Origin: Metabacillus halosaccharovorans
Lineage (GTDB): Bacteria > Bacillota > Bacilli > Bacillales > Bacillaceae
Assembly: GCF_002019635.1 (NCBI RefSeq)
Contig: NZ_KV917371.1
Span: forward strand, 1,904,001-1,968,000
Direction: 5' to 3'
Length of the DNA: 64,000 nucleotides
Program-made: the position numbers and the translations under genes
Notes under the pieces: model-generated
The model's database searches: none
What the model saw: only the letters and a program-made list of their open reading frames with translations
Told to the model about the DNA's origin: nothing
Shown here: positions 22,702-60,961 of the stretch, piece after piece
How the letters are laid out: the number at the start of each line of letters is the position of its first letter
How positions within the stretch are numbered: position 1 is the first letter of the stretch

Positions 22702-22717
22702 GTTCTTTTTAACGAAA
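22702..22717. promoter_or_regulatory. SinR-type operator (GTTCTTTTTAACGAAA)
   Basis: Form GTTC-N8-GAAA with the GTTCTTT half-site. It lies 128 bases upstream of sinR and 280 bases upstream of epsA. It is one of the weaker matches of the set. Confidence 0.45.
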
Positions 22718-22883
22718 AAATGACAAATTTAAGAGTTTTTTTATTTAGGTAATTTATCATATATTTGTAAAGAATGTAATATTCTTTATTTTATGTATAG
22801 AGTTAATTTATTGACTTAACATGTAAAAGAATAAGACTTGAACTAAAAACAACATGAAAAAACACAAAATTCACTAAAAAGGA

Positions 22884-22912
22884 TTGACTTGTTCTTTATA
22901 GTGAACTATCCT
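22884..22912 (+). promoter_or_regulatory. eps operon promoter with operator filling its spacer
   Basis: TTGACT (22884-22889), 17 bases, TATCCT (22907-22912). The spacer contains GTTCTTTATAGTGAAC at 22891-22906, a SinR-type site with both GTTC and GAAC half-sites, so a bound repressor would sit between the -35 and -10 boxes. The epsA start codon is 72 bases downstream. Confidence 0.75.
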
Positions 22913-22951
22913 AGTTTTAGAGAACATGATCTCATGATTATTTAAATGTGT

Positions 22952-22967
22952 GTTCTTAATTAAGAAA
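22952..22967. promoter_or_regulatory. SinR-type operator (GTTCTTAATTAAGAAA)
   Basis: Contains the perfect 14-bp palindrome TTCTTAATTAAGAA and lies just before the epsA ribosome site, 61 bases from the operator in the promoter, so cooperative or looped binding is possible. Confidence 0.6.
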
Positions 22968-22983
22968 AGTAGGTGGCGGGTGT

Positions 22984-23724
22984 ATGTCTAGCTTTCAAAA
23001 GCTTGAAGATAGACGTTTAAATGAATTTAAGCAGTCCAAAGAAATTGATTTGAAAGAAGTGTTCATGATTATAAAAAGGTACGTTTGGATCATTCTCCTT
23101 ATTACGATCCTTTCAACTTCAGCGGGTGCCTTTTACTCTATGTCAACTTACAGTCCTTTGTATCAATCAACATCAAGGATTATTATTGGCGCAGATAGTA
23201 ATATGATAACAACATTAAAAGTCATCATTCAGGATTCCACTGTACTAGAAAAAGTTGTGCAGAAACTAGATCTCCCTTATTCTGCAGAGTCACTTAGTGG
23301 AAAAATTAGTGTTGGAAGTATAGAAAATTCTCAAGTTGTAACCATCAGTGTTGTTGACTCTAATCCAAAGCAAGCTGCTACGATAGCAAATACTGTTGCT
23401 GAAACATATAAAGATGAGATCCCAGCAATAATGGATTTTAAGGATGTTAGATTACTGTCTGAAGCAAAAGAAATTCCATTCCCGATAAATGAAAATCAAA
23501 ATAGAACCATTATTATCGCAGCTATAGGTGGTATAGTCATTGGAATTGGGCTAGCATTTTTACTGGATTCTTTGAATAACAGCATTAGAAAAGAACATGA
23601 AGTGGAAGAATTACTCGGTATCCCTGTTCTTGGATCCATAGATAAAATGAAAAAGAATAACATGCAAAAGAAAAAAGGCAAGAAAACAAGTTTTGAACAG
23701 AGGAGTGAGACACTTGGTTCTTAA
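22984..23724 (+). CDS. epsA: EpsA, polysaccharide co-polymerase / tyrosine kinase modulator
   Basis: A 246-aa membrane protein of the Wzz/YveK class. An N-terminal cytoplasmic stretch precedes the first membrane helix (about residues 34-54). An extracellular coiled region follows, then a second helix (about 175-195) preceded by the Pro-rich motif PFPINENQNR, and a basic cytoplasmic tail (MKKNNMQKKKGKK). It sets chain length and activates the partner kinase EpsB. The start has an AGGTGG site. It overlaps epsB by 11 bases and is the first gene of the eps operon. Confidence 0.9.
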   Translation: MSSFQKLEDRRLNEFKQSKEIDLKEVFMIIKRYVWIILLITILSTSAGAFYSMSTYSPLYQSTSRIIIGADSNMITTLKVIIQDSTVLEKVVQKLDLPYSAESLSGKISVGSIENSQVVTISVVDSNPKQAATIANTVAETYKDEIPAIMDFKDVRLLSEAKEIPFPINENQNRTIIIAAIGGIVIGIGLAFLLDSLNNSIRKEHEVEELLGIPVLGSIDKMKKNNMQKKKGKKTSFEQRSETLGS

Positions 23725-24382
23725 ACTGAATAAGAAAAAGGCACTTAAAGAGATGACTAAGCGCCATTTTGTTACATACACAAATCCTGGTTCAGAAATT
23801 GCAGAACAGTATAGAACAATAAGAACGAATATACAATTCTCGTCTATTGATGAGAAATATAAAACATTGATCATTACTTCTCCTTCTTCTTCAGAAGGGA
23901 AAACGACAGCTGCCATCAATTTAGCCATTTCAATATCTCAACAAGGTGAAAGGGTCCTTTTAATAGATGCAAACCTTCGGAAACCTAAATTACATATATC
24001 TTTTAACCTAAAAGATTATCATGGTCTAACCGATGTATTGATTGGAAGAGTGGGTCTAGAGGAAGCCATTTTTCAAACTCAAATTGGTAAGCTGGATTTG
24101 TTAACAAGTGGTATTATTCCCTCAAACCCTACTGAAATTATTGGATCAGATGCAATGAAGTATTTACTTAAGGATATAAAAGAGGAATATGATACAGTTA
24201 TTTTTGATAGTCCACCAGTATTAGAAACCACGGATACAAAACTTTTAGCAGGACTATGTGACGGTGTTGTGATGGTCGTAAAGGGTGGAAAGACTGATAG
24301 AGAAAAAATAGTTGAAGCTAATCGGTTATTAAAGCTTGTCAGGGCAAAGGTATTGGGAGTTATATTGAATGAAAAATCATAA
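23714..24382 (+). CDS. epsB: EpsB, bacterial tyrosine kinase lacking the C-terminal Tyr cluster
   Basis: About 222 aa from TTG 23714 (AGGAG at 23701); GTG 23705 is a close alternative. It has the BY-kinase nucleotide site: Walker A SPSSSEGKTTAAINLA, Walker A' LLIDANLRKP and Walker B TVIFDSPPV. It forms the cytoplasmic kinase half of the EpsA-EpsB pair that controls polymer export. The C-terminus ends at KVLGVILNEKS, with no run of tyrosines for autophosphorylation. The DNA just after the stop encodes none in any frame, so this is not a simple frameshift. Confidence 0.9.
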   Translation: MVLKLNKKKALKEMTKRHFVTYTNPGSEIAEQYRTIRTNIQFSSIDEKYKTLIITSPSSSEGKTTAAINLAISISQQGERVLLIDANLRKPKLHISFNLKDYHGLTDVLIGRVGLEEAIFQTQIGKLDLLTSGIIPSNPTEIIGSDAMKYLLKDIKEEYDTVIFDSPPVLETTDTKLLAGLCDGVVMVVKGGKTDREKIVEANRLLKLVRAKVLGVILNEKS

Positions 24383-24396
24383 TTTGGGCTTTTGAT

Positions 24397-24412
24397 GTTC
24401 GTTATAAAGAAT
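24397..24412. promoter_or_regulatory. SinR-type operator-like site (GTTCGTTATAAAGAAT)
   Basis: The same GTTC-N8-GAAT layout, with G in place of T at position 5, located between the epsB stop and the EAR element. It contains TATAAA and may mark an internal promoter or a roadblock. Confidence 0.45.
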
Positions 24413-24417
24413 AATAG

Positions 24418-24540
24418 TTTGTTAGGCGATGTCTCCTTGCCTTTATCAATGGAGGCACTCGGCCATGCTGTGGGTTGAAACTAACCTTAGACGCGAGTCG
24501 TCATTAGCATGGTGTGAGGAAGGGTTAGATGCCCTATTAA
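24418..24540 (+). ncRNA. Candidate EAR element (eps-associated antitermination RNA)
   Basis: In B. subtilis and relatives a conserved RNA between epsB and epsC lets RNA polymerase read through terminators inside the long eps operon. The sequence here lies at exactly that place, is rich in complementary segments (GCCATGCT with AGCATGG; GGTT-GAAAC-AACC; GAAGGGT with CCCT) in an otherwise AT-rich region, and encodes no protein. The call rests on position and pairing; I could not score it against a covariance model. Confidence 0.7.
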
Positions 24541-24596
24541 TTAAAATAATCACTTATAAATCTTAACTGATCGAGACTTATAAGTGATTATTTTAA
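24541..24596. terminator. Perfect 19-bp inverted repeat after the EAR element
   Basis: TTAAAATAATCACTTATAA and its exact reverse complement, separated by 18 bases. On either strand the stem ends in a T-rich run, so it could terminate transcription. It lies inside the eps operon directly after the EAR candidate, a place where antitermination would be needed. Confidence 0.6.
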
Positions 24597-24612
24597 TAAA
24601 GGAGCTGAACCT

Positions 24613-24768
24613 ATGAAAGAATTTGATCGCTTTCCTAAGGTGATGAAGAAGCTCGTGCGATACATAAAACAGGAGGCATCTTTAGAACAGCTGGAGCAAT
24701 TTAAAAAGGAGCTTGACCACGCAATGGAAAAAAGAACTGTCATGTTAAAGAAAACAACAGAAAACTAA
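24613..24768 (+). CDS. Small helical protein in the eps operon
   Basis: A 51-aa open frame with GGAGC before its ATG, starting MKEFDRFPKVMKKLVRYIKQ and continuing EASLEQLEQFKKELDHAMEK. It is strongly charged with a heptad-like pattern, so one long amphipathic or coiled-coil helix is likely. It ends 16 bases before epsC, whose ribosome site lies in the gap. I recognise no family; in B. subtilis no gene is annotated here. Codon use and ribosome site make it look real. Confidence 0.6.
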   Translation: MKEFDRFPKVMKKLVRYIKQEASLEQLEQFKKELDHAMEKRTVMLKKTTEN

Positions 24769-24784
24769 ATAAGGAGGTGAGACC

Positions 24785-26608
24785 TTGTCTTATCGAAGTC
24801 GCATATGGTTGCTTATTGGCTTAGATTCACTAATTGTTTTATCCACCATCTATTTCAGCAATGCACTAATTAACCCAAGTTTACAGGCATTAACTCTTTC
24901 TATTTTTGTTATTTCTATAACTTTATTAATAAGTCATCATCTATTTTCATTTTTATTTAAGCTTTATAAAAAGGCCTGGGAATATGCCAGTATTGGCGAA
25001 CTAATCATTATATTTAAAGTTATAACTTATACTATTGTCGTAACAGCGGTTGTGCAACAAATTGTACAAAAACAAATTGATTTTCGGATCTTAGCCATAA
25101 CATGGATGATTCATCTTCTATTAATCGGTGGTTCAAGATTTTTCTGGAGAATTTATCGAGATACCTACCTGAAACATCCAATTAATAAAAAACGGACACT
25201 AATAATTGGAGCCGGATCAGCTGGAACAATGGTCGCAAGGCAGCTTCTGCATAATCGTGATGCAGAGCTTGTACCAGTAGCATTTGTTGATGACAATGTA
25301 CATAAACAAAAACTGGATATTTTAGGCATCCCTGTAGCTGGTGGTGTAAAAGAAATTGAGAGAATTACACAAGAACTAAATATTGCAAACATTGTTATTT
25401 GTATTCCATCATTAAATAAGAAGCAACTCAACCATATTTTTAGAGAATGTGCCAAAACAAATGCAAAAACACAAATGATTCCAATGCTTGAGGATTTAAT
25501 GACAGGTAAGGTTTCTGTCAACCAATTCCGTGATGTTCAAGTAGAAGATCTGCTTGGACGTGACACAATCGAACTTGATATTAATAGTATCAGTGATTAT
25601 GTGTCAAATAAGGTAGTACTTGTAACTGGTGCAGGAGGTTCTATTGGCTCGGAAATATGCCGCCAAATTTCAAAGTTTCATCCTAAAGCATTGGTTTTAC
25701 TTGGACATGGAGAGAATAGTATTTATACAATTGAAATGGAATTAAAAGAAGCGTTTAAAAATAATGGGATCGAATTCATAACTGAAATTGCTGACCTTCA
25801 AGATTTTGATAAGCTCTTAAAGGTAATGGATATTTATCAACCACATGTGGTTTATCATGCAGCAGCACATAAACATGTGCCTCTGATGGAACGAAGTCCA
25901 GAGGAAGCAGTGAAAAATAACATTATCGGAACTAAGAATGTTGCACAAGCAGCAAGTGTTCATAATGTTGAAACCTTTGTCATGATCTCGACAGATAAAG
26001 CAGTTAATCCAACGAGTGTCATGGGCTCAACCAAGAGATTAGCTGAGATGCTGATTCAACACTTTGACCAAATTAGTTCAACAAGATTTGTTGCTGTTCG
26101 ATTTGGGAATGTGTTAGGAAGTAGAGGTAGTGTTATACCACTTTTTAAAAAGCAAATTCAAAGTGGTGGTCCTGTTACAGTGACACACCCTGATATGGTC
26201 CGTTACTTTATGACGATTCCCGAAGCATCAAGATTAGTGATTCAGGCCGGAGCACTAGCAAGAGGTGGCGAAATTTTCGTTCTTGATATGGGGGAACCTG
26301 TAAAAATTGTAGATCTTGCCAAAAACTTGATAAAGCTTACAGGAAATAATATTGATGAGATCGGAATCGAGTTTACTGGTATGAGACCAGGTGAAAAACT
26401 TTTTGAAGAGCTTTTAAATAAGGATGAGGTCCACGAAGAGCAAATATATCCGAAAATTTATATTGGTAAAACGTCGCAATTATATATAGAAGAAATTGAT
26501 TATATTATCAAAAATTTTAAAACGTTGGATCGAGAGCATTTAAGAGAGACACTTTTAAATTTAGCAAATGAACGAGTAGAATATCAGAAGAAATTAGTAT
26601 CTGTTTAA
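24785..26608 (+). CDS. epsC: EpsC, membrane UDP-sugar 4,6-dehydratase
   Basis: A 607-aa protein: four membrane helices (first ~125 residues), a CoA-binding-like Rossmann part ([15 protein letters not shown], about 140-260) and an extended SDR domain from [10 protein letters not shown] at residue 281. The catalytic region [16 protein letters not shown] has Met where classical SDRs have Tyr, as in PglF-type enzymes. It removes water from UDP-GlcNAc to give the 4-keto-6-deoxy sugar used by EpsN and EpsM. The TTG start has an AAGGAGGTGAG site. Confidence 0.93.
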
Positions 26609-26624
26609 GAGGAGAGGGTTAAGG

Positions 26625-27506: not shown

Positions 27507-27532
27507 CACCTTTACCATTGGGTGTTTTTTTT
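27505..27532 (+). terminator. Terminator-like hairpin inside the eps operon
   Basis: AACACC, a ten-base loop, GGTGTT, then six more Ts, overlapping the stop codon of the uridylyltransferase gene and lying 22 bases before the epsD start. A short stem, but the T run is strong. It would need the EAR system to be passed efficiently. Confidence 0.6.
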
Positions 27533-27554
27533 ATGTTCAAAAAGGGTGAAAACA

Positions 27555-29803: not shown

Positions 29804-29808
29804 ATGTA

Positions 29809-30699: not shown

Positions 30700-30720
30700 T
30701 TAAATTAGAAAGGATTAAAA

Positions 30721-31791: not shown

Positions 31792-31802
31792 GAGGGAAGA
31801 GA

Positions 31803-31949: not shown

Positions 31950-31962
31950 AAAGGGGAGAAAA

Positions 31963-33191: not shown

Positions 33192-33205
33192 GAGGAGGTG
33201 TATTC

Positions 33206-35165: not shown

Positions 35166-35173
35166 GAGAAAAT

Positions 35174-49833: not shown

Positions 49834-50100
49834 TTTTTCATCATCCTAATTGAATGTAATTTTAAGATTATCTTTCCATACATTCGAATAACACTTCCTT
49901 TCTAAATTCTAAGTGCCATAATGTATCATATGATGCTAGTATCACGAACGGTTGGACACAGTAGAAAAATCCTAAATAAAAATTTCACAAGATGCGTAGA
50001 ATAATATCACCTTTAGCGCTATTCAAGGTATTGTGTGCTTTATTAGAAATTTTTTAGGGGGTTCAAAAAGATATTGTATTCCTCTTTAAAATATAGTATT

Positions 50101-50116
50101 GTTCTTTATATAGAAT
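50101..50116. promoter_or_regulatory. SinR-type operator (GTTCTTTATATAGAAT)
   Basis: GTTC-N8-GAAT with the perfect GTTCTTT half-site, 198 bases upstream of galE and 268 bases upstream of the divergent beta-helix gene, so either could be its target. Confidence 0.6.
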
Positions 50117-50243
50117 AAAAAGTGTGAGTTAACTGTTGTGATACCTTTTGGATAGCTAGATGTGTAATTACATATTTTAATTTTGGTTTAACATAGGGTG
50201 TTGTTTTTAAATAGCACTTAATAATCGGTAATATTATCCAGTT

Positions 50244-50259
50244 GTTCGTTATAATGAAA
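50244..50259. promoter_or_regulatory. SinR-type operator-like site (GTTCGTTATAATGAAA)
   Basis: Same layout, containing a consensus TATAAT (50250-50255) 44 bases before the galE start, so binding here would cover the likely -10 box of galE. Confidence 0.5.
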
Positions 50260-50298
50260 TTTGAGTTATACATAATACTAATCTAAGGGGATAGAACG

Positions 50299-51327
50299 AT
50301 GTCTATATTAGTAACAGGTGGAACAGGATATATCGGTTCCCATACATGTGTACAGCTACTATCTGCAGGCTTTGATATTGTACTATTAGATAACTTTTCA
50401 AACAGTAAATCAGAAGTAATAGACCGAATAAAAGAAATAGCAGGTAGAGATTTTACATTCTATCAAGCAGATCTACTTAACAAAAAAGAAATAGTATCAA
50501 TTTTTGAGAAAAACAAAATAGATACTGTCATCCATTTTGCTGGACTTAAAGCTGTAGGAGAATCTGTTTCAATACCTATAAACTACTATCATAATAATAT
50601 TACTGGAACACTTAATCTATGTAGTGTCATGGAACAATTTGGTGTTTATAATTTAGTTTTTAGCTCATCGGCAACTGTTTATGGAACACAAGATCAAGTA
50701 CCTTTACATGAAGATCTCCCTTTGTCAGCAACAAATCCTTATGGTAGGACTAAGTTAATGATAGAGAATATCCTTAATGATCTCTATGTTTCCAATACTA
50801 ACTGGAGCATTGCTTTACTTAGGTATTTTAATCCAGTTGGTGCACATTCTAGTGGTCTTATAGGTGAAGATCCTAATGGAATACCAAACAATTTAGTACC
50901 GTATATCACACAAGTTGCTATCGGGAAGCTACCGGAACTAAAAGTCTATGGAAATAATTATCCCACTATAGATGGAACAGGAGTAAGGGATTATATTCAT
51001 GTAGAAGATCTTTCTGAAGGACATATAAAAGCATTAGAGAAAGTTACAATTTCTACAGGAATAAATGCCTATAACCTAGGAACAGGCATCGGATATAGTG
51101 TGCTTGAGATGATTAATACATTTTCTAAGGCATCCGGAAGAGAAATTCCATATAAAATTACGAACAGAAGACCAGGAGATATCGGTGAAAGTTTTGCTGA
51201 CCCATCAAAAGCGGAAAAAGAGTTAAATTGGAAAGCTAAGAAAGATCTATATGAAATGTGCATTGATTCATGGAGATGGCAAGTTAATAACCCGAATGGA
51301 TATGAAAGTAAAGTTACTGTAGTTTGA
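50299..51327 (+). CDS. galE: UDP-glucose 4-epimerase
   Basis: A 342-aa extended SDR enzyme that interconverts UDP-glucose and UDP-galactose. The NAD motif is TGGTGYIGSH at the N-terminus. The catalytic Ser in SSSATVYG and the Tyr and Lys in YGRTK are present, with RYFNPVGAH and RRPGDIGESFADPSKAEKEL typical of GalE. AAGGGGA precedes the ATG. It is a single gene between the eps-like region and the lasso cluster. Together with the uridylyltransferase in the eps operon it would supply UDP-galactose for the polysaccharide. Confidence 0.94.
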   Translation: MSILVTGGTGYIGSHTCVQLLSAGFDIVLLDNFSNSKSEVIDRIKEIAGRDFTFYQADLLNKKEIVSIFEKNKIDTVIHFAGLKAVGESVSIPINYYHNNITGTLNLCSVMEQFGVYNLVFSSSATVYGTQDQVPLHEDLPLSATNPYGRTKLMIENILNDLYVSNTNWSIALLRYFNPVGAHSSGLIGEDPNGIPNNLVPYITQVAIGKLPELKVYGNNYPTIDGTGVRDYIHVEDLSEGHIKALEKVTISTGINAYNLGTGIGYSVLEMINTFSKASGREIPYKITNRRPGDIGESFADPSKAEKELNWKAKKDLYEMCIDSWRWQVNNPNGYESKVTVV

Positions 51328-51395
51328 TTAATCTTAAATAAATAATAATCATAGATTACTTAAATAATAGCAGAAGTTAATTATAACAAGGTTAT

Positions 51396-51411
51396 GTTCG
51401 CTATAATGAAT
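51396..51411. promoter_or_regulatory. SinR-type operator-like site (GTTCGCTATAATGAAT)
   Basis: Same layout as the site before galE, including an internal consensus TATAAT (51402-51407). It lies 69 bases after the galE stop and 330 before the lasso cyclase gene. Confidence 0.5.
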
Positions 51412-51583
51412 ATTTATTTTGTGCTTATATTCATTGTTTTGTAAAGTTCTTATTTGCTTAGAATAATTATTTAAATATTAATGGCAAGAGTTCTACGGTA
51501 TTTATTAAGTAAGTTGATGTATATGTTGTTTAAAATTTTATTATATAGGTAGTTTTGATTGGATTAATAGTAATAAAATGGAA

Positions 51584-51625
51584 TTGACATCCAAAATCAA
51601 ACATGATACGTTCTTTATAAAGAAT
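51584..51625 (+). promoter_or_regulatory. Candidate lasso-cluster promoter with operator GTTCTTTATAAAGAAT
   Basis: TTGACA at 51584, then a near-perfect palindromic SinR-type site at 51610-51625 that overlaps the expected -10 region. Start of the cyclase gene is 117 bases downstream. Confidence 0.55.
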
Positions 51626-51670
51626 AAAATTAAGTGTTAAAGCCCTGGTTTCTTTCTTTTTTGTTTTGTT

Positions 51671-51686
51671 GTTCTTTAAAATGAAC
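51671..51686. promoter_or_regulatory. SinR-type operator (GTTCTTTAAAATGAAC)
   Basis: Has both outer half-sites GTTC and GAAC, exactly like the eps promoter site. It lies 55 bases before the cyclase ATG and 61 bases from the previous operator, the same separation (61) as the two operators before epsA. Confidence 0.62.
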
Positions 51687-51741
51687 GTTAAGTAGGTGTT
51701 CACTTCAACCAATTCAATGGGTAACAAATCAGGAGGAAATA

Positions 51742-53673
51742 ATGAGTGCAATTGCTGGTATTTTTCATTTAAATAAAGAACCTGTTTCCATGGAACATGC
51801 AAACAATATGATGGGGATTTTAAGGAAGTTTCCAGCTAATGATGTTCGAACATGGATAAAAGACAATATCTTTCTTGGATGTCATGCACAATGGATTACA
51901 CCTGAATCTATAAATGAACAACTTCCTTATTTTGATCAAGAACGGCAAATTTCCATTACAGCAGATGCAATTATTGATAATAGAAAAGAGTTAATTAATC
52001 AGTTAAATATAGAAAAATCTTTAGGTTTAGTTATCCCAGATAGTCAACTCATACTATTAGCTTATGATAAATGGGGAGAAAACTGTCCTAAGTATTTAAT
52101 AGGTGATTTTGCTTTTATAATTTGGGATGACAAAAATCAAAAACTATTTGGAGCAAGAGACCCATCAGGTTATCGAACTCTTTATTATTGGAATGACAAT
52201 ACGAAGTTCGCTTTTTGTACAACAATTAAACCATTGTTAGCTTTGCCTTGCGTAGAAAAGAAGTTAAATGAGAGCTGGCTTGCAGAATATATGGCGATTT
52301 CTGGAATGATTGATACAGTTGATGCTTCTACTACACCTTATCAAAATATCAACCAAATTCCACCCTTTCACTCGATTACAGTTTCTAGAACTAATATTAA
52401 GTTAAATAAGTATGGTCAGTTCAACCCTGAGAAAGTACTGAAGTTAAAATCCAATAGAGAATATATTGATGCTTTTCAGGATGTCTTTCAAAAAGCAGTA
52501 ATATCTAGGTTACGTACATACCGCAATATTGGATCTCATTTAAGTGGTGGCTTAGATTCAGGATCTGTTGTTGGTTTTGCTGCAAGGGAATTAAAGCATC
52601 AAAATAAATTGGTACATACCTTTAGCTATATTCCGCCGAGTGACTTTAAAGATTACACATCAAATCACCTCATGCCTAATGAAAGCCCATTAATTAAGAA
52701 AACGGTAGATTATGTTGGAGGAGTTTCTGATCACTACTACAATTTTGATGGAGTTGATTCATATTCAGAACTTAATAGTATTCTCGATATGAATGAGATG
52801 CCATATAAATTTTTCGAAAACTCATTTTGGCTAAAGGGGATATTTGAAAAAGCACAATTAGAAGAAGTAGGTGTCTTACTAAATGGTGACAATGGGAACC
52901 TATCAATCTCTTGGGGAAATGCGTTTTATTACTATAGCGAGCTTCTAAAAAAAATCAAATGGTTTCGTCTAGCCAAAGAGTTAAATCAATATAGTAAAAA
53001 TGTAGGTGGATCAAGATTTCGAAATTTACCTGTTATTTTAAAGATGGGATTTCCAGGAGTTCGAAAAACAAAGTCAAACATGTCGAAATCTTTAGTTATA
53101 AACCAAGAATTCGCAAAGCAAACAGGTGTTTTTGATAAGTTGCAACAATTTGGACTTAATGAAACTGGTTGGTTCAGTGGGAATAATTTAAACCAACAGA
53201 GAAGGATGGTTTATGATACTATCTGCCCCTGGAATGCCGGGAATACTTTCAATACAAAGCTATCACTACACTATTCTTTATGGAAACGTGACCCCACAAA
53301 TGATATTAGAGTTGTGCAGTTCTGTCTATCGTTACCTGATGAACAATATGTTCAAGATGGAATGGATCGCGCTCTTATAAGAAGATCAACAGAAAATATC
53401 TTACCAAACGAGATTAGATTAAATCAAAGAATCCGGGGAATACAGGCAGCAGATTGGGTTCATAGAATTGCTCCACATTGGGATAGTTTAATAGAAGAAA
53501 TGAAAGAATTAAACGCTGATGAAAGAATGTTAAAGTACTTTAATAAAGAGATTATAGATAGTGCATTAAGAAAAGCAGAAGAAGGGCCTCAAAGAGAGCA
53601 GATATCAAATCCTGATTACCGAAACTTAACTCAAAGTTTAATGGTCTATCGTTTTATAAAAAATAACTTCTAA
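51742..53673 (+). CDS. Lasso peptide cyclase (asparagine synthetase-like, C protein)
   Basis: A 643-aa homologue of asparagine synthetase B that, in lasso clusters, adenylates the side chain of core Asp/Glu so that the freed N-terminus closes the macrolactam ring. The N-terminal glutaminase-like domain begins MSAIAGIF, with Ser instead of the catalytic Cys2, so ammonia release from glutamine is not expected. The ATP pyrophosphatase motif is SGGLDSGSV from Ser268. GFAARELKHQN and MDRALIRRSTENILP are typical. A strong AGGAGG site precedes the ATG. It is first in the order C-A-K-B1-B2-N-D, as in paeninodin-type clusters. Confidence 0.93.
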   Translation: MSAIAGIFHLNKEPVSMEHANNMMGILRKFPANDVRTWIKDNIFLGCHAQWITPESINEQLPYFDQERQISITADAIIDNRKELINQLNIEKSLGLVIPDSQLILLAYDKWGENCPKYLIGDFAFIIWDDKNQKLFGARDPSGYRTLYYWNDNTKFAFCTTIKPLLALPCVEKKLNESWLAEYMAISGMIDTVDASTTPYQNINQIPPFHSITVSRTNIKLNKYGQFNPEKVLKLKSNREYIDAFQDVFQKAVISRLRTYRNIGSHLSGGLDSGSVVGFAARELKHQNKLVHTFSYIPPSDFKDYTSNHLMPNESPLIKKTVDYVGGVSDHYYNFDGVDSYSELNSILDMNEMPYKFFENSFWLKGIFEKAQLEEVGVLLNGDNGNLSISWGNAFYYYSELLKKIKWFRLAKELNQYSKNVGGSRFRNLPVILKMGFPGVRKTKSNMSKSLVINQEFAKQTGVFDKLQQFGLNETGWFSGNNLNQQRRMVYDTICPWNAGNTFNTKLSLHYSLWKRDPTNDIRVVQFCLSLPDEQYVQDGMDRALIRRSTENILPNEIRLNQRIRGIQAADWVHRIAPHWDSLIEEMKELNADERMLKYFNKEIIDSALRKAEEGPQREQISNPDYRNLTQSLMVYRFIKNNF

Positions 53674-53688
53674 AAGGAGGTGATAAAT

Positions 53689-53847
53689 ATGAAAAAGCAA
53701 TGGACTAATCCTACTTTACAAGTTTTAGATGTAAAACAGACAATGTGGAATTTAAAAGGTACACACCATGATGGAGCTTGGACTGAGCACATTTCTAATC
53801 CACATGATAATGGAGATGGTACAACTACTGAATCTCAAATGAGTTAA
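53689..53847 (+). CDS. Lasso peptide precursor (paeninodin-type)
   Basis: A 52-aa precursor with an AGGAGGTGAT ribosome site, 15 bases after the cyclase gene. The leader (residues 1-19, MKKQWTNPTLQVLDVKQTM) has W-x-x-P-x-L, the variant of Y-x-x-P-x-L bound by the RRE protein, and Thr at position -2 for the leader peptidase. The predicted core begins WNLKGTHHDGAWTEHI (residues 20-35): Trp1 and Asp9 would form a nine-residue ring. The remaining tail is long (24 residues) and ends in TTTESQMS, so the last residue is Ser, the phosphorylation site in paeninodin. Core length of 33 residues is large for the class. Confidence 0.88.
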   Translation: MKKQWTNPTLQVLDVKQTMWNLKGTHHDGAWTEHISNPHDNGDGTTTESQMS

Positions 53848-53863
53848 TTTGTTACAAGCTACA

Positions 53864-53896
53864 TAACGATAGCCCTTAATATAAGGGCTATCGTTA
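53864..53896. terminator. Perfect 15-bp hairpin after the lasso precursor gene
   Basis: TAACGATAGCCCTTA and its reverse complement with a three-base loop, 17 bases after the precursor stop. The T run is short, so it may be a partial terminator or an RNA-stabilising 3' end that raises precursor levels relative to the enzymes downstream. Confidence 0.75.
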
Positions 53897-53922
53897 CATG
53901 ATGTTTAAATGGAGTGAACATA

Positions 53923-54864
53923 ATGATTGTTACTAAACGGAAAATGTCTTATATGGCATTCGGTGTTCATATTTTAAGCGAAATACCTTTACCAGAATTA
54001 TCACCAATGGGACTAGAAGATCAAGGATTTGACGTTGAAGTTGTAATAGAAGATTTAAAAATGGAGTGGGAGCATTTAGCTAAGGATAAAACTGGCTATA
54101 TTTTCAAAGAAAGTTACGTTTTATTTAGATTAGATGACATTGCAATCTTTTTAATAAAAGAAGGGAAAAAAATCTCTATATCTCCCCTTAAAGATTATAA
54201 GGAAGATATTGCAAAAATGATTGTATTAGGCACTTGTATTGGTGCCATATTGTTGCAAAGGAACATTCTGCCCTTACATGGAAGTACCATTGCTGTTAAT
54301 GGAAAAGCCTATGCAATTGTTGGTGAATCTGGTGCAGGAAAGTCAACCCTTGCTTCTACATTTATACGGGATGGATACCCAATTTTGACTGATGATATTA
54401 TAGCTGTTTCTATTTTAAACGAAAGAACACCTTTTGTTATTCCGTCTTATCCACAACAAAAATTATGGCAAGAAACTCTACATGAATTTGGAAAGACCAC
54501 GTCTAATTTAAAGTCAGTTTATGGTAGACAAACCAAGTATTATGTACCGTTACTAGCTGAATTTTTAACAAATCCATTGCCGTTGGCAGGGATATTTGAA
54601 CTGGTAAAAATAGATCAAGAAGAGGTTGAAGTAGTCACTAAAACTAGACTTGAGCAACTCTCTATTTTATACAATCATACATACCGTAATCTTATGATTT
54701 CAGGTCTAAGAAAATTAGAATGGCATTTTAAGGTATCTACTAACATTTTAAATAATATAAATGTTTACCAATTACAACGACCGATATCTCGATTTACATC
54801 TGATGAATTAGTATCAATTATTTTAGAAAAGATTAGATTAACTGAGGAGAATAATAAAAAATGA
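53923..54864 (+). CDS. HPr kinase-like lasso peptide kinase (PadeK type)
   Basis: A 313-aa relative of HPr serine kinase. Walker A GESGAGKST is at residues 134-142, and DGYPILTDD carries the acidic pair that follows in HPr kinases. In paeninodin-type clusters the homologue phosphorylates the C-terminal Ser of the precursor, and this precursor ends in Ser. ATG 53923 fits the GGAG site; GTG 53914 in the same frame is too close to it. Overlaps the next gene by four bases (ATGA). Confidence 0.9.
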   Translation: MIVTKRKMSYMAFGVHILSEIPLPELSPMGLEDQGFDVEVVIEDLKMEWEHLAKDKTGYIFKESYVLFRLDDIAIFLIKEGKKISISPLKDYKEDIAKMIVLGTCIGAILLQRNILPLHGSTIAVNGKAYAIVGESGAGKSTLASTFIRDGYPILTDDIIAVSILNERTPFVIPSYPQQKLWQETLHEFGKTTSNLKSVYGRQTKYYVPLLAEFLTNPLPLAGIFELVKIDQEEVEVVTKTRLEQLSILYNHTYRNLMISGLRKLEWHFKVSTNILNNINVYQLQRPISRFTSDELVSIILEKIRLTEENNKK

Positions 54865-55154
54865 AAACTTACGAAATGATCACATTAGAAGATATAGTTA
54901 CACAGGTTGAAGGTAATGTTTGTAGTGATATGGATGGAGAAAAAGTCATGTTAAGCATAAAAAACGGGAATTATTACAATCTTGGTGAAACAGGTGGAGT
55001 TATTTGGGATTTGATGGAAAAACCTATGAAAGTAAACGAAATAATTAAAAAAATGAAGGCAATATATGAAGTGAATGATCAAGATTGCGAACTTCAAGTC
55101 CGCTCCTTTTTAGAAAATTTAATAAGTGAAGGACTAATTGAAAAAAACTTATAA
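54861..55154 (+). CDS. PqqD-like RiPP recognition element (lasso B1)
   Basis: A 97-aa PqqD-family protein: GEKVMLSIKNGNYYNLGETGGVIWDLMEKP is the usual beta-strand and turn core (positions 28-57), followed by a helical half ending FLENLISEGLIEKNL. It binds the leader peptide and delivers it to the peptidase B2 and the cyclase. Overlaps the kinase gene by four bases. Confidence 0.92.
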   Translation: MKTYEMITLEDIVTQVEGNVCSDMDGEKVMLSIKNGNYYNLGETGGVIWDLMEKPMKVNEIIKKMKAIYEVNDQDCELQVRSFLENLISEGLIEKNL

Positions 55155-55181
55155 ATTATTTTAAAAAAGTAGGTATGCAAC

Positions 55182-55649
55182 GTGAATTCTTTAAGGAGAA
55201 TAAAGATATTTCTATTCATGGGAAAAAAATCTCAATTCCTTTTTATAGAGGCGCTTTTTTATCTAGGTATTGCTAGAATTCTTAAAAGTTTACCTTTTCA
55301 TAGAATAGTGCATTTATTAGGTGAAGAGAATAAGGAAACGATATATCAAACTACTATTTCACTGACTGATAGGAAAACATTAATTGAAATTTCCCAAGCG
55401 ATAAATACGATGAGTCGCTATACATTATGGGAAAGTATGTGTCTTGTAAAAGCTATTGCTTGTATGAAAATGCTGGAGAGGCGTCAATTTAGTTGTACTC
55501 TTTATTTTGGAACGGCGAAGGATCATACAGGTAGAATGATTGCCCATGCTTGGTTACGAAGTGGACCCTATTATCTAACGGGGTATGAAGAAAAAGAAAA
55601 ATTTACGGTAGTAAGTAAATTTGCAAATAACTTAGGGGAAAAGACATAA
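55182..55649 (+). CDS. Lasso leader peptidase (transglutaminase-like B2)
   Basis: A 155-aa Transglut_core3 cysteine protease that removes the leader after the Thr-x site. The catalytic Cys87 is in WESMCLVKAIA and His122 in MIAHAWLRSG. The expected third residue (Asp about 12 positions after the His) is not evident, as noted in some Bacillota B2 proteins. GTG start with GTAGGT upstream. Works with the B1 protein. Confidence 0.9.
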   Translation: MNSLRRIKIFLFMGKKSQFLFIEALFYLGIARILKSLPFHRIVHLLGEENKETIYQTTISLTDRKTLIEISQAINTMSRYTLWESMCLVKAIACMKMLERRQFSCTLYFGTAKDHTGRMIAHAWLRSGPYYLTGYEEKEKFTVVSKFANNLGEKT

Positions 55650-55666
55650 AAAGGAGAAAATTCGGA

Positions 55667-56845
55667 ATGGGCAATTATACACTAAGAACCGATAACGTAC
55701 CTAAAGAGCTACTGATTATACTGGATATTATAAAAGGAAATCAGATTACTACTGAATTGTTAAATGATACTGATTGGAAACTATTCACTCAGTTGTTAAT
55801 CCACCATCGATTATATCCCTTAATTTATCCCAGATTAAAAGACTATGATCAAAGTTTTTTCCCCTCACATATTCTTCAAATAATATCCTATAAATATAGG
55901 ATGAATACTATTGAAATGTTAAAGTTATCCGGAGAAATGATAGAATTAGACAGTTTGTTTACTAATAATGAAATTATGTCCATTTTTTTGAAAGGACCGG
56001 CTCTTGCCCTTGAAATATATGGTGATATAAGTTTAAGAACATCGGGTGATTTAGATATTCTTGTGTCTATTGATCAGTTAGAATCAGTTAATGTTCTATT
56101 ATGTAAGGTTGGCTATAAAAAGGATGAATATTTTTCGACAACCTTAGATGACTGGAAATGGAGGCACCATCATCTTACTTACTATCATTCTGAAAAAGGA
56201 ATAAAACTAGAGGTGCACTGGCGGTTAAATCCAGGTCCAAGTAAGGAACCTTCCTTTAGGGAACTATGGGAAAGAAGAAGTAGAGTTAGCTTTTCAGGGC
56301 ATAGCATTCATTTATTAGGAAAAGAAGATTTATTTTTGTTTCTTGTTACCCATGGAGCAAGGCATGGTTGGTCAAGGTTACGTTGGTTAGTTGATATACA
56401 TAAATTGATAAATAAAGACATGGATTGGCCATCTCTTATTAATAGACTGAAAAAATATGATTACATGAGAATTGGCGGACAATCAATTATTTTATCTAAT
56501 CAATTATTAAATACTTCAATTGATAAGTATATGACAAATGAAATAATAAGCAATTGTTCAAAAAAACTTGCAAATGAGGCTGTTTTTTATTTAGAAAGAA
56601 TGATTAATTTACATTCAGAGCCTCTTCCAGAAGACGTATCAAACTTTCATAAAAAACACATGTTTCATTTACTATCATTACGACAAAAACTACTATTAAT
56701 TTTAAGTTTTCTTTATCCATACCCTGATGATGTAGATGTTTTACCATTGCCAAAGAGACTACACTTCTTATATTTTCCTTTACGTCCCTTTTTATGGTCT
56801 TGGAGAAGAGTTAAAGGATTAAGAAAACAAACTATATCAAGCTAG
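55667..56845 (+). CDS. Nucleotidyltransferase-family lasso tailoring protein (N)
   Basis: A 392-aa protein of the NTP_transf_5 family with LKGPALALEIYGDISLRTSGDLDILV: Gly/Asp-x-Asp of the polymerase-beta-like nucleotidyltransferase core near residues 105-130, and HWRLNPGP with a further conserved region. Such genes follow B2 in paeninodin-type clusters; in pseudomycoidin the homologue is reported to add sugar to the phosphorylated peptide. AAAAGGAG site 18 bases after B2. A paralogue lies at 61275-62378. Confidence 0.87.
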   Translation: MGNYTLRTDNVPKELLIILDIIKGNQITTELLNDTDWKLFTQLLIHHRLYPLIYPRLKDYDQSFFPSHILQIISYKYRMNTIEMLKLSGEMIELDSLFTNNEIMSIFLKGPALALEIYGDISLRTSGDLDILVSIDQLESVNVLLCKVGYKKDEYFSTTLDDWKWRHHHLTYYHSEKGIKLEVHWRLNPGPSKEPSFRELWERRSRVSFSGHSIHLLGKEDLFLFLVTHGARHGWSRLRWLVDIHKLINKDMDWPSLINRLKKYDYMRIGGQSIILSNQLLNTSIDKYMTNEIISNCSKKLANEAVFYLERMINLHSEPLPEDVSNFHKKHMFHLLSLRQKLLLILSFLYPYPDDVDVLPLPKRLHFLYFPLRPFLWSWRRVKGLRKQTISS

Positions 56846-56853
56846 GAGGGTAT

Positions 56854-58647
56854 ATGATGAACGAACTTTTTTATTTTTTTAAACGATTATATACCTTATC
56901 AGGAAAGATACTTTATGTAAATGTTATAGGGATGGTGTTGATTGGAATTTTTGAAGGAGTGGGTATATTTTTACTGATTCCATTAATTGGGTTAACTGGA
57001 ATAGTAGATGTAGGTTATGACTATTCCGGCATTAACTGGATACATAATATTTTTAAAGATATGCCCCAAATGCTTGGGTTGATCATTGTACTAGGAGCTT
57101 ACGCCTTATTAATAATTGCGCAAAGTTATTTTCAACGAAATCAATCTATTTTAAATACAAAGATTCAACAACACTTTATCCGACACTTGAGAGAAGAAAC
57201 ATATAAATCAATCTTACAAGCAAAATGGAGTTTTTTTCTAAAAAAGAAAAAAACAGATTTAATTAATTTAATTTCAGTTGAATTAAATAGGGTAGCAGGA
57301 GGAACATCATTATTCCTGCAGTTTATATCCTCACTAATTTTTACCTTTATTCAACTATGCTTAGCTTTCTGGTTATCAGCATCAATGACGATTTCTCTTC
57401 TTATTTTAGGTGCATTATTACTCTTCTTCTCGAAAACGTTTGTCAAGAAGTCCAATATATATGGAGAAGAAACGATGGTTTTATCAAAAGAGTTTATAGG
57501 TGGAGTTACTGATCATTTCAATGGGATAAAAGAAATAAAAAGTAATAATCTGGAAGAAAACCATATAAAATGGTTTTATAATATCAGTGGAAAAATTGAA
57601 AGAAATATCATTAACATTGTGAAACTAAATACACTCTCTCAATTTGTGTATAAAATAATATCTGCATTTTTAATAATTACGTTTGTTTTTTTAGCAATAA
57701 AAGTTCTTAACACTCAACCTGCGCAATTAATGCTTATTATTGTCATTTTTTCAAGACTTTGGCCAAGATTAGCTGGTATTCAATCTAATTTAGAGCAACT
57801 AAGTTCCATTCTTCCTTCTTTTAAAGCATTTCAAGATCTACAATCTGAGTGTAAAAGAGCAAAAGAGCTGGATGATGAAAATTCTAAAATCATTGAACCA
57901 ATTCGTATTACGAATGGAATTGAGTGTGTAAATGTCTCATTTAAATATCAAAATCAATCTTATCACGCTCTGAAAAATATTAACTTGTACATTCCGGCAA
58001 AATGTATGACAGCAATTGTAGGTCCATCTGGAGCGGGGAAAAGTACATTAATTGATATCCTAATGGGCTTAAATAAGCCAGTACAAGGTCATGTTCTTAT
58101 TGATGGCAACCTTTTGTCAAATGATAATTTATTATCTTTAAGAAGTTCAATTAGTTATGTACCACAAGATCCTTTTTTATTTAATACCTCAATAAGAGAG
58201 AATATGCTGATCGTACAGACAAAAGCTACCGAATCACAAATATGGGAAGCTCTAGAATTTGCTGCAGCAGATTTTGTGAAGAATTTACCAAACGGGCTTG
58301 ATACGATGATAGGAGACAGAGGGATAAGGCTTTCAGGAGGAGAACGTCAAAGAATTGTCTTGGCTCGTGCAATATTGCGTGAACCATCTGTACTAGTATT
58401 GGATGAAGCAACAAGCGCTTTGGATACCGAAAATGAAGTGAAAGTTCAAGAAGCCATTGAACGATTAAAAGGAAAAATGACGATTATCGTTATTGCCCAT
58501 CGTTTATCAACGATCCGAAATGCAGATCAAGTAATAGTGTTGGAAGAAGGTAGGATAGTCCAACAGGGAGATTTTCATGAACTTGCAAAGGATAAGAAAG
58601 ATGTTTTTGGAAAGTTGTTAGAAAAACAGGTAGAAGTGTTCGGATAA
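56854..58647 (+). CDS. ABC exporter of the lasso peptide (D)
   Basis: A 597-aa fused ABC transporter: six membrane helices (about residues 15-320) and an ATPase domain with Walker A GPSGAGKST, signature LSGGERQRIVLARA, Walker B VLVLDEATSALD and the switch His in IAHRLS. It exports the mature peptide and often gives self-immunity. AGGAGGG site, eight bases after the nucleotidyltransferase gene. Confidence 0.93.
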   Translation: MMNELFYFFKRLYTLSGKILYVNVIGMVLIGIFEGVGIFLLIPLIGLTGIVDVGYDYSGINWIHNIFKDMPQMLGLIIVLGAYALLIIAQSYFQRNQSILNTKIQQHFIRHLREETYKSILQAKWSFFLKKKKTDLINLISVELNRVAGGTSLFLQFISSLIFTFIQLCLAFWLSASMTISLLILGALLLFFSKTFVKKSNIYGEETMVLSKEFIGGVTDHFNGIKEIKSNNLEENHIKWFYNISGKIERNIINIVKLNTLSQFVYKIISAFLIITFVFLAIKVLNTQPAQLMLIIVIFSRLWPRLAGIQSNLEQLSSILPSFKAFQDLQSECKRAKELDDENSKIIEPIRITNGIECVNVSFKYQNQSYHALKNINLYIPAKCMTAIVGPSGAGKSTLIDILMGLNKPVQGHVLIDGNLLSNDNLLSLRSSISYVPQDPFLFNTSIRENMLIVQTKATESQIWEALEFAAADFVKNLPNGLDTMIGDRGIRLSGGERQRIVLARAILREPSVLVLDEATSALDTENEVKVQEAIERLKGKMTIIVIAHRLSTIRNADQVIVLEEGRIVQQGDFHELAKDKKDVFGKLLEKQVEVFG

Positions 58648-58683
58648 TAGTATTTTTACTTTAAGGATTTAAGCTTAACACAA

Positions 58684-59538
58684 ATGTTCACTATCACGAA
58701 TTACTTAATTTCCATTGAAAGGACTGATAGCTGGGGAATGAGTACTAAGGGGGGGATACAAATTATTGGAGCAGCAAAGCAGACAATTAGAGAATACAAG
58801 TCTTCTAAAAATCCATTTATTAGGTGTAGTGTATCATCCTTGGCCTTTTGTTGGAATGCTTTATTGAATTTAAAGCGCTTATTTGTTGATACTGAATTTC
58901 GGTCCGTACTTTTATTGCAAATATTCGATTCTAAAAATGTCCATCAAACAACACCTCTCACATATATGGATCGATATCCTAAAATTTTTTCAGCATGTAG
59001 AGACTATTTTGGTGATAAAAAAGAATTAAAGATCCTTTCTTTTGGTTGTTCAACAGGTGAAGAAGTATTAACACTTCGTAAATATTTCCCATCTGCACAT
59101 ATTGTGGGCGCGGATATTAACAAGCGTAGCATCGCAATATGTAGAAGACTTCCAGTAGATGAAAAGATTACGTTTGTCCATTCTAGTGATAGTGAAATTC
59201 AAAAGCATGGACCTTTTGATGCTGTTTTCTGTATGGCAGTGTTGCAGAGAAAGCCACATTACATTGCTGCTAAAGGAATTAGTTCTATTAAAAAGATTTA
59301 TCCATTTGAAAAGTTTGAAAAGCAGATCATTGAACTAGATGGGTTACTAAAGAAGCAAGGGATATTGACAGTTCATTTCACTCAATACTCCCTCAGTGAT
59401 ACATCTGTAGAATTTAAGTATGAGGCTTTGGGTAATTATAATCAAAATGATTATCGATCACCAGTGTTTGATAGAAATAGTCAAATAGTAAAAAATCCAT
59501 CACTTCAGAATAGTATTTTTATTAAATCTGGGAAATAA
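58684..59538 (+). CDS. SAM-dependent methyltransferase, possible lasso tailoring enzyme
   Basis: Up to 284 aa, a class I methyltransferase with motif I ILSFGCSTGEEVLTLRKYF (CheR-like GCSTGEE), motif II IVGADINKRSI and motif III PFDAVFCMAVLQ. The start is uncertain: ATG 58684 has a weak site; ATG 58738 is inside the frame, and the domain starts about residue 85 in either case. It lies 36 bases after the exporter gene. Some lasso clusters encode methyltransferases that esterify the peptide C-terminus; here that would compete with Ser phosphorylation. The role is inferred from context. Confidence 0.75.
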   Translation: MFTITNYLISIERTDSWGMSTKGGIQIIGAAKQTIREYKSSKNPFIRCSVSSLAFCWNALLNLKRLFVDTEFRSVLLLQIFDSKNVHQTTPLTYMDRYPKIFSACRDYFGDKKELKILSFGCSTGEEVLTLRKYFPSAHIVGADINKRSIAICRRLPVDEKITFVHSSDSEIQKHGPFDAVFCMAVLQRKPHYIAAKGISSIKKIYPFEKFEKQIIELDGLLKKQGILTVHFTQYSLSDTSVEFKYEALGNYNQNDYRSPVFDRNSQIVKNPSLQNSIFIKSGK

Positions 59539-59630
59539 ATGGTTTTTAGGTTTATAGTTTATATGTTAAGGAGCTTTAAATTAGTAAATTATCGAAGAGA
59601 TCGCAGTTAACTCAAACTGGAGAGGTAAAA

Positions 59631-60509
59631 ATGAATAAGTTAAAACGAGTCCTCTTGTTTATAGTTATTGTTTTTATGATCTTAGTCATCTATACAATTT
59701 GGGACAATAACAGAGTGATAATTGTAGAAGAAGATATTTTAGTTGAAGACTTACCAGTTGAATTTGAAGAGTTTAAGATCCTGCAAGTGACAGATTTACA
59801 TGAAAAAGAATTTGGCAAAAATCAAAAAGAGCTAATTAATAAAATTAATTCTGTTAGGTACGATGTATTGTCATTAACAGGTGATTATCTAAAAAGTCAG
59901 GACAGTGAGAATTACTCAGCTACATATAAGATTTTAGATGGTATACGTAATAAGGAGCATGTCTTATATGTCCCTGGAAACACAGATCCAGCTCCATATG
60001 TCATTAAAAATAAAACTGTTGTAAGAAATCCTTTTTTATTGGGACTTGAAAAAAGAGGTGTAAAGCTATTAGAGTCTGATTACAAGATTAACCATAACGG
60101 GGTTGCAGTCCAATTTGTAAATTTTGAGGAATCTATTTTAGAGAAAGATGAGGAAAATAACTCAAGTGTGTTAATTGCTTTAAATCATTATCCGATTGTA
60201 GATACTAGAATTGATCAAATTAGGGAAAATCCAAATCAACACATTCGAAATTATGATCTTATCATGGCAGGTCATTATCATGGTGGTCAAATACGACTCC
60301 CATTTGTTGGGGCCTTATTTGTTCCTGAAGCGTGGTATGAAAGAAGCGGTTTGTTTCCTCCACAAGATCGAGTTAAAGGGTTATGGCAATATAATCATAC
60401 AAAACAATATGTAAGTGCTGGTTTAGGAAGTAGTAACGCCATCCCGTTCTTGAACTTTCGATTTTTAAACACACCAGAAATAAACGTTTTAACGTTAAGA
60501 AGGAAATAA
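59631..60509 (+). CDS. Membrane-anchored calcineurin-like metallophosphoesterase
   Basis: A 292-aa protein with an N-terminal membrane helix (about residues 5-24) and an extracellular phosphoesterase domain: QVTDLHEKEFG (D-x-H), LTGDYL (GD), VPGNTDP (GN with Asp instead of the usual His), LNHYPIV (H) and MAGHYHGGQIRLP (GHxH). The family cleaves phosphate esters outside the membrane. Its place after the lasso genes suggests removal of phosphate from the exported peptide or wall material, but this is only inference. GGAGAGG site. Confidence 0.85.
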   Translation: MNKLKRVLLFIVIVFMILVIYTIWDNNRVIIVEEDILVEDLPVEFEEFKILQVTDLHEKEFGKNQKELINKINSVRYDVLSLTGDYLKSQDSENYSATYKILDGIRNKEHVLYVPGNTDPAPYVIKNKTVVRNPFLLGLEKRGVKLLESDYKINHNGVAVQFVNFEESILEKDEENNSSVLIALNHYPIVDTRIDQIRENPNQHIRNYDLIMAGHYHGGQIRLPFVGALFVPEAWYERSGLFPPQDRVKGLWQYNHTKQYVSAGLGSSNAIPFLNFRFLNTPEINVLTLRRK

Positions 60510-60539
60510 AGAAATGCTAAAGAACTAGGAGAAATATCG

Positions 60540-60869
60540 ATGAAAATGAATAATAATAAGAGAAATACGTTTGTAAAACGAATTTGCTATTATCTAGCAT
60601 TTCTTAACTTAATAGACGGTATTCTCACGTATATAGGTCTCAAGTTAAATTTAATTGAAGAGGCCAATGTATTAATGAGAATCATTTATGAAGCAGAACC
60701 AGTTTATTTTCTAATAGTTAAGACTCTTTTATCGATATTGTTGTTTGCACTATGCATCCTTCAAAAAATACCAAACAATTTTAGAATGAAAACAATCTCA
60801 TATATAGGAGCTTCTCTATATACATTCGTACTGTTTATCCATTTTTATTGGATAGTTGACATCATATAA
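60540..60869 (+). CDS. DUF5658-like small membrane protein
   Basis: A 109-aa protein with three or four membrane helices. The motif LNLIDGILTYIGLKLNLIEEANVLM matches the D-x-x-(L/T)T...G...EAN-P/V-x-M pattern of the DUF5658 family. The ribosome site (CTAGGAG) is good. It is 30 bases after the phosphoesterase gene and probably in the same transcript. Function unknown; immunity is possible in this context but unsupported. Confidence 0.7.
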   Translation: MKMNNNKRNTFVKRICYYLAFLNLIDGILTYIGLKLNLIEEANVLMRIIYEAEPVYFLIVKTLLSILLFALCILQKIPNNFRMKTISYIGASLYTFVLFIHFYWIVDII

Positions 60870-60893
60870 TTGAGGAAAAAATTTTAAAATATT

Positions 60894-60909
60894 GTTCTTT
60901 AAAAAGAAT
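60894..60909. promoter_or_regulatory. SinR-type operator (GTTCTTTAAAAAGAAT)
   Basis: Near-perfect palindrome of the GTTC-N8-GAAT form, 100 bases before the zinc-ribbon gene and 25 bases after the preceding stop codon. Confidence 0.6.
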
Positions 60910-60945
60910 GAAATCTTGTTGTTCAATCTATTTTTTTATCTAAAA

Positions 60946-60961
60946 GTTCTCTATTGAGAAT
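60946..60961. promoter_or_regulatory. SinR-type operator (GTTCTCTATTGAGAAT)
   Basis: Carries the exact GTTCTCT half-site described for SinR (GTTCTYT) and the palindrome TTCTC-TATT-GAGAA. It lies 33 bases before the ATG at 60994 and 52 bases from the previous site. Confidence 0.65.

Follow-up and report, generated by a model that had tools for sequence, protein, structure and literature searches.

We examined a 64-kb stretch of the genome of Metabacillus halosaccharovorans (G000:C1:1904001-1968000; hereafter, the window), in which eleven copies of a 16-bp repeat of the form GTTC-N8-GAA(T/A/C) are associated with the exopolysaccharide (eps) operon, a galE-type sugar epimerase gene, a paeninodin-type lasso peptide cluster and a small gene encoding a zinc-ribbon-like (ZnR-like) protein. 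Read from left to right, the window holds the eps operon with a divergent SlrR-like gene before it, galE, the lasso cluster, a DUF5658/zinc-ribbon gene pair and the distal part of a linear polyphosphorylated peptide (LPP) cluster, which runs past the right edge of the window to an LPP precursor gene, followed by sinR and sinI. The repeats recur in other genomes ahead of eps, galE, the lasso cyclase gene (lasC), the ZnR/DUF5658 genes and tasA, which supports the proposal of an original prediction, made on this stretch from its letters, that exopolysaccharide and a modified lasso peptide form one regulon, with SinR as the putative binding protein. Throughout, G-numbers designate sampled genomes, G000 being the source of the window.

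Operator-like sites in the window

The gap between the SlrR-like gene (22190..22573, - strand) and epsA (22984..23724, + strand; an open reading frame [ORF] in a conserved place, named by its position before the EAR element and from the original prediction) contains three sites, which, like all those that follow, are given on the + strand. The distal one is the operator-like site GTTCTTTTTAACGAAA (22702..22717), with a similar site in 11 of the 13 Metabacillus islands that have this gap (not in G013 or G015). The second, GTTCTTTATAGTGAAC (22891..22906), occupies the spacer of the epsA promoter in the arrangement TTGACT-t-operator-TATCCT, and the third, GTTCTTAATTAAGAAA (22952..22967), stands immediately ahead of the epsA start. 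Another operator, GTTCGTTATAAAGAAT (24397..24412), sits between epsB and the EAR element (24424..24535, + strand; Rfam RF01735, epsC RNA, 114.8 bits against a gathering threshold of 42). Upstream of galE (50299..51327, + strand; assigned by family search) there is a distal operator (50101..50116) and a proximal one (50244..50259) that scores 19.3 bits with a matrix trained on eps sites. The gap between galE and lasC (51742..53673, + strand; asparagine synthase-like, assigned by family search) holds the operator-like site GTTCGCTATAATGAAT (51396..51411) and, ahead of the cyclase gene, the operators GTTCTTTATAAAGAAT (51610..51625), with a TTGACA starting 26 bp upstream, and GTTCTTTAAAATGAAC (51671..51686), the proximal one. 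The last two operators lie upstream of the zinc-ribbon gene, at 60894..60909 and, proximally, at 60946..60961.

All eleven coordinates listed in the original prediction carry the pattern and, as it had proposed, the consensus builds on the half-site GTTCTYT: the sites fit the published SinR inverted repeat of two 7-bp half-sites with a 2-bp gap, the second half-site often having one or more mismatches. Over both strands, the window contains 20 matches to GTTC-N8-GAA(T/A/C), where 100 shuffles gave 6.54 on average and 18 at most, the palindromic sites at 22891 and 51671 each being counted twice. The eleven listed sites sit between main genes and upstream of them, as had been claimed, and the series continues beyond the right edge of the window. 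The seven remaining window matches (at 17331, 25958, 26925, 47550, 52419, 58686 and 63524) fall inside ORFs as drawn. That at 17331 is the single match to the loose pattern in positions 1-22000, in agreement with the reported lack of sites in the gaps of the yqg and comG regions. The match at 58686-58701, GTTCACTATCACGAAT, is only 2 bases within a methyltransferase ORF as drawn, the start of which is uncertain; its fit to the consensus is poor, and it would be upstream if the ORF truly starts at the ATG near 58739. Antisense ORFs overlap the sites at 51610 and 51671 (one ORF of 90 amino acids, 51530-51802) and some of the other listed sites (ORFs of 36-55 amino acids); all of these ORFs are taken as spurious.

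Enrichment and recurrence across genomes

Chance matches within genes, left uncounted in the original prediction, were counted here with the reversed pattern as a control, and the motif was not equally common in coding DNA or ahead of unrelated genes, an outcome that favors a regulon. In the 80-kb island of the source genome itself, 10.3 kb of non-coding DNA contains 13 matches and 69.7 kb of coding DNA contains 9, with 3 and 12 matches, respectively, for the reversed control. Across 18 pieces from 16 other Metabacillus genomes, GTTC-N8-GAAH has 120 matches in 101 kb of non-coding DNA versus 75 in 593 kb of coding DNA, and the reversed control has 17 and 61 (Fisher p 4e-51, p-values here being nominal because the genomes are related and not independent). 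Eleven further pieces, 8 from other genera and 3 from Metabacillus, yield 72 matches in 52.7 kb of non-coding DNA versus 59 in 390 kb of coding DNA, with 1 and 50 for the reversed control.

The tight pattern GTTCKYWWWWDNGAAH, which covers all eleven sites, has 34 matches in the 5.4-Mb genome, 11 of which are within the 64-kb window. Outside the window, 20 of the 23 matches lie inside ORFs and three are intergenic: about 15 bp ahead of the LPP precursor gene just past the window, in the gap upstream of tasA, and in a stretch that appears terminator-like by eye. Since GTTCKYWWWWDNGAAH was fitted to the eleven sites, the decisive test lies in other genomes. In the 13 Metabacillus genomes whose island region combines eps, lasso and sinR genes, 77 of the 91 whole-genome matches to GTTCTYTAWWRWGAAH (77 being summed by hand) fall inside the island pieces, which make up about 1% of the DNA. 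When all 21 genomes are taken, the same pattern has 115 matches versus 25 for the reversed control. Extra regulon members were also sought outside the island, where matches were mostly genome-specific or inside genes. A recurring exception is a consensus site ahead of an aminotransferase-like gene (named by eye) in G002, G005 and G007 (L190, L173 and L194, respectively, near position 1501), a possible further member of the regulon.

A weight matrix was trained on 20 distinct sites from epsA upstream regions only and applied within islands at a threshold of 12 bits, with 278 windows of 310 bp as background. Contig-edge artefacts (lasC rows G009_408 and G018b, galE row G018b) being excluded, sites of at least 12 bits precede lasC in 15 of 20 usable cases, galE in 14 of 19 and the LPP precursor gene in 11 of the 11 cases that cleared the bit-score limit, and 3 of the 278 background windows reach this score. 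All 13 LPP precursor genes found have a site when those of G005 and G007, detected by simple pattern, are added to the 11 reached by the matrix. Four of the five island lasC genes that fail (in G001, G002, G007 and G011) have the operator ahead of an upstream small ZnR-like/DUF5658 gene, the fifth being that of G028. When the family sample is counted by genome, a site precedes lasC in 20 of the 21 genomes that have a strong match to this gene, including G018, where the site stands before a ZnR-like gene further upstream; in the exception, G028, more than 260 kb separate lasC from the SinR-family genes found in that genome. The comparison of gene places between islands leaves out two reference proteins, labelled yqzE and sinIlike, whose reading frame was wrong and included stops.

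In a sample of the whole order, 109 lasC matches were obtained in 85 of 397 genomes, and exclusion of G000 and G067, which were known before, left 107. The matrix scores at least 15 bits within 700 bp upstream of 94 of these 107 genes (26/29 plus 68/78; totals by hand). Neither control gave a site: 0 of 107 in 700 bp taken from within lasC, a control that differs from intergenic DNA in base composition, and 0 of 107 in the upstream regions searched with the reversed motif, a control that does not. Per genome, with G000 and G067 included, a site precedes at least one lasC gene in 80 of 85. The lasC genes of G346 and G442 were considered as natural negatives and dropped, second lasC copies there carrying weaker sites.

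Within the genus, sites recur at the same places: in the gap between the SlrR-like gene and epsA, between epsB and the EAR element, ahead of galE, ahead of lasC or the small genes that precede it, ahead of the ZnR/DUF5658 genes and ahead of the LPP precursor gene. In each of the 13 Metabacillus islands of this type, the epsA promoter reads TTGACT, one base, the 16-bp operator and TAT(C/T)CT, and sites are present ahead of epsA in all seven islands from other genera. Lying in the promoter spacer, the epsA operator is in the position of a repressor site and would be outside the transcript, the promoter itself being predicted from its sequence. When a consistent sigma-A promoter was sought over the operators, a clear and repeated layout emerged at epsA alone; lasC in G000 and G005 has a TTGACA 26 bp upstream. 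The spacing between paired operators varies widely, and we therefore claim no fixed helical phase. As a positive control, tasA, a known SinR target, has a site upstream in 9 of the 12 Metabacillus genomes that have the gene. The operator between epsB and the EAR element, 18-41 nt past epsB, is present in 12 of 13 Metabacillus islands, in 7 of 7 islands from other genera (three genera) and also in G009. Searches of 26 EAR loci from Bacillus, of the G019 locus (Metabacillus) and of G016 gave no such site. The epsB-EAR operator could be that of an internal promoter or a roadblock placed before the antiterminator.

Candidate binding proteins and rival explanations

The gene that the original prediction had taken for sinR in the window turned out to be a SinR paralogue, divergent from eps, the true sinR lying 2.2 kb past the right edge. 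The product of the window gene combines an HTH_3 domain with a SinI-type domain, has its best match in the NCBIfam SlrR model (94.9 bits, far under the cut-off of 250), and carries Tyr at residue 33 of the recognition helix. This residue is Lys in B. subtilis SlrR and Ser in SinR, a difference put forward in PMC3163267 as the cause of the different SlrR consensus. Given a score below the SlrR cut-off and Tyr33 instead of Lys33, we name the protein SlrR-like only. In B. subtilis, slrR is likewise divergent from eps. A small SinI-like protein of 46 amino acids (22057..22197, - strand; Pfam SinI, 42.3 bits against a cut-off of 31.4) is encoded with an 8-bp overlap with the 3' end of the SlrR-like gene, which suggests a dedicated antagonist of the SlrR-like protein. 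The true sinR (C1:1970240-1970566) encodes a helix-turn-helix (HTH) protein with Ser33, a recognition helix, GVAKSYLSSIERNLQ, identical to that of B. subtilis SinR, and a SinI-type domain, and has sinI alongside. Helix identity to B. subtilis SinR and Ser33 hold for all 21 SinR orthologues compared, and 13 of 13 island-bearing Metabacillus genomes have two SinR-type genes. In four genomes from other genera (G065, G067, G068 and G070), sinR is distant from the lasso and LPP clusters and the operators are still present.

SinR is proposed as the binder because GTTCTTT-AT-AAAGAAT is an inverted repeat of GTTCTYT with a 2-bp gap, like the kinB SinR-1 site, for which PMC5733473 gives this half-site and an inverted repeat at -57/-51 and -48/-42; SinR is reported to bind an inverted repeat about 10 times tighter than a single site (PMC3163267). 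From this sequence evidence we consider it very likely that the sites are SinR operators and that SinR would repress eps, galE, the lasso cluster, the LPP cluster, the zinc-ribbon gene and tasA together. In growing cells, a SinR tetramer would occupy one or two of the 16-bp inverted repeats at each promoter, and at epsA, where the repeat takes up the space from -35 to -10, polymerase would be blocked. SinI (and perhaps also the SlrR-like paralogue and its SinI-like partner) would then remove SinR, and this removal would jointly release all of these targets, leading to their putative co-expression in matrix-producing cells. The shared operators suggest that the peptides are made together with the biofilm matrix in Metabacillus and many of its relatives.

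Several observations weigh against this interpretation. The genome-wide total of GTTCKYWWWWDNGAAH is not above that of its reversed control (34 vs 35), location alone being unusual, and it was in the light of this lack of excess that the positions of its matches were examined instead. No site was found for 13 of the 107 lasC genes in the order, namely those of G368, G346, G442, G164, G344, G373, G430 and G323 (one of two) and the second lasC copies of G429, G195, G453, G264 and G104. The eps-trained matrix finds no galE site in 5 of 19 usable cases, tasA has no site in 3 of 12 genomes, the layout of TTGACT, operator and TAT appears in only one of the seven islands from other genera (G067), and at the galE and LPP operators no sigma-A promoter was clear enough to be scored. 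A sinR homologue was found in all 29 genomes searched, and the presence of sites therefore cannot be correlated with the absence of SinR. Finally, an SlrR-like protein could bind the same sites, SinR and SlrR being indistinguishable from the site sequence alone.

Taken further, this last point would make the SlrR-like paralogue, and not SinR, the main protein on the sites, perhaps as an activator or within an SlrR-SinR mixed repressor. Its gene shares the operator-rich gap with the divergent epsA, is present in most of the island genomes compared and encodes an HTH close to that of SinR, but residue 33 is Tyr where the B. subtilis proteins have Lys or Ser, and the promoter of tasA, a known target of SinR, has the same kind of site; we therefore regard a leading role for the paralogue as rather unlikely. 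Most of the genomes checked have the clusters in physical linkage with eps or a SinR-family gene, the latter at most 50 kb from lasC on the same contig in 23 of 29 (hand count), and it might be argued that the lasso and LPP clusters merely adjoin eps and that their sites are functionless old eps operators. The lasC sites, however, are kept across many families at varied sequence and spacing, and G129 and G444 keep the site though the SinR-family genes listed there are about 740 kb off or on another contig, so that we see this as an improbable account. Least probable of all, and rejected here, is a role of the palindromes as RNA, in the form of attenuators or processing hairpins in 5' leaders. 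A 16-nt palindrome could form a 6-bp stem, but the epsA site lies between the predicted -35 and -10 elements and hence upstream of the transcript, three RNA folds were weak (z-scores of -1.44, 0.10 and -0.16) and no terminator-like site was found in 49834-51800.

Peptide clusters and known biofilm regulons

The cluster placed behind the putative SinR operators at lasC is of the paeninodin type, and its cyclase is 84% identical to that of M. litoralis SW-211. The PadeA-family precursor (53689..53847; NF033524, 35.6 bits against a cut-off of 27), the PqqD-type leader-binding protein B1 (54861..55154; NF033536, 126.1 against 80) and the leader peptidase B2 (55182..55649; NF033537, 99.2 against 33) all exceed their NCBIfam cut-offs. 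The cyclase (NF033535, 417 against 525) and the HprK-like kinase (53914..54864; HprK_rel_B, 31.5 against 200) match the right families below the curated cut-offs, and their place and order fit. A nucleotidyltransferase (55667..56845; NTP_transf_5, by family search) and an ABC transporter (56854..58647; identified from its translation, in a conserved place) follow, all these genes being on the + strand. The predicted core peptide begins WNLKGTHHD, with a putative W1-D9 ring. Precursors in the gap between lasC and the kinase gene (lasK) vary, several relatives having near-paeninodin cores (AGPG..TPDAVQPD) and the window and G005 a Trp-first core.

The zinc-ribbon-like protein (60967..61203, + strand) has CxxC pairs recognized by eye and no Pfam or NCBIfam match at the thresholds used; its true start is probably at 60994, which has the better ribosome-binding site. 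The zinc-ribbon and DUF5658 pair persists between slrR and sinR in G012 and G020, in pieces read there without the lasso cluster, and a ZnR-like gene stands directly ahead of lasC in several genomes. The distal part of the LPP cluster (61275..64000, - strand), with a nucleotidyltransferase and an ABC transporter gene, continues past the window. In the precursor, RPLVLEHQAIRFETAQS agrees with the LPP leader motif YxxPxVLxHQxIxFETxxS at every position but the Y, where it has N. Its neighbors include an archaeal-type, SipW-like signal peptidase (sigpep_I_arch, 57.2 against 51.85), PqqD (36.6), NTP_transf_5 (125.9) and an ABC transporter above cut-off, together with an HprK-like kinase with only weak matches under the cut-off; no cyclase gene was seen among the ORFs of the LPP cluster region. 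The cluster (window 61275-64000 plus L062:1275-5978) directly follows sinI-sinR on the same strand, a place taken in B. subtilis by the tasA operon.

The inferred network resembles the B. subtilis SinR regulon (epsA-O, tapA-sipW-tasA, slrR and kinB) as described in PMC3163267 and PMC5733473 in its half-site, its 7-2-7 repeat, its recognition helix and its eps and tasA targets. It differs from that regulon in the additional operators ahead of galE, the paeninodin-type lasso cluster, the LPP cluster and the zinc-ribbon gene, and from Bacillus in the extra operator before the EAR element, which has no counterpart in the 26 Bacillus EAR loci. A biofilm-related peptide product under SinR is also reported for the kurstakin lipopeptide genes of Bacillus thuringiensis (PMC3909190). 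The paeninodin-type lasso and LPP clusters of Bacilli described in PMC13381572 share the kinds of enzymes, the leader motif and the linkage to polysaccharide loci seen here. According to that study, LPPs co-localize with lasso and polysaccharide loci, and in Paenibacillus lppB goes up in stationary phase along with the lasso gene pbaB1 and an eps-related gene; its authors call a biofilm role tempting and untested. Its main text does not contain the words SinR, operator or repress, and the operator link is added here. Among the titles listed in literature searches, with subscription journals mostly uncovered, none reports a link between SinR and lasso peptides, the direct pairing matching only an unrelated endometrial-cancer title. 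In the Bacillales, the operators described here would account for joint expression of lasso, LPP and eps genes of the kind reported in PMC13381572.

More tentatively, and with somewhat more doubt than confidence, we put forward that the paeninodin-type lasso peptides and LPPs of Bacillales may be matrix-state peptides, long within the SinR regulon, made mainly by the SinR-released, matrix-producing subpopulation and acting in or on the biofilm, and that in Metabacillus-like genera SinR may also act as a roadblock inside eps before the EAR element, tying initiation and antitermination to one switch. If SinR control of these genes is borne out, conserved SinR-type operators would link paeninodin-type lasso peptides and LPPs to matrix production, and this control would offer a practical route to make silent lasso clusters produce.

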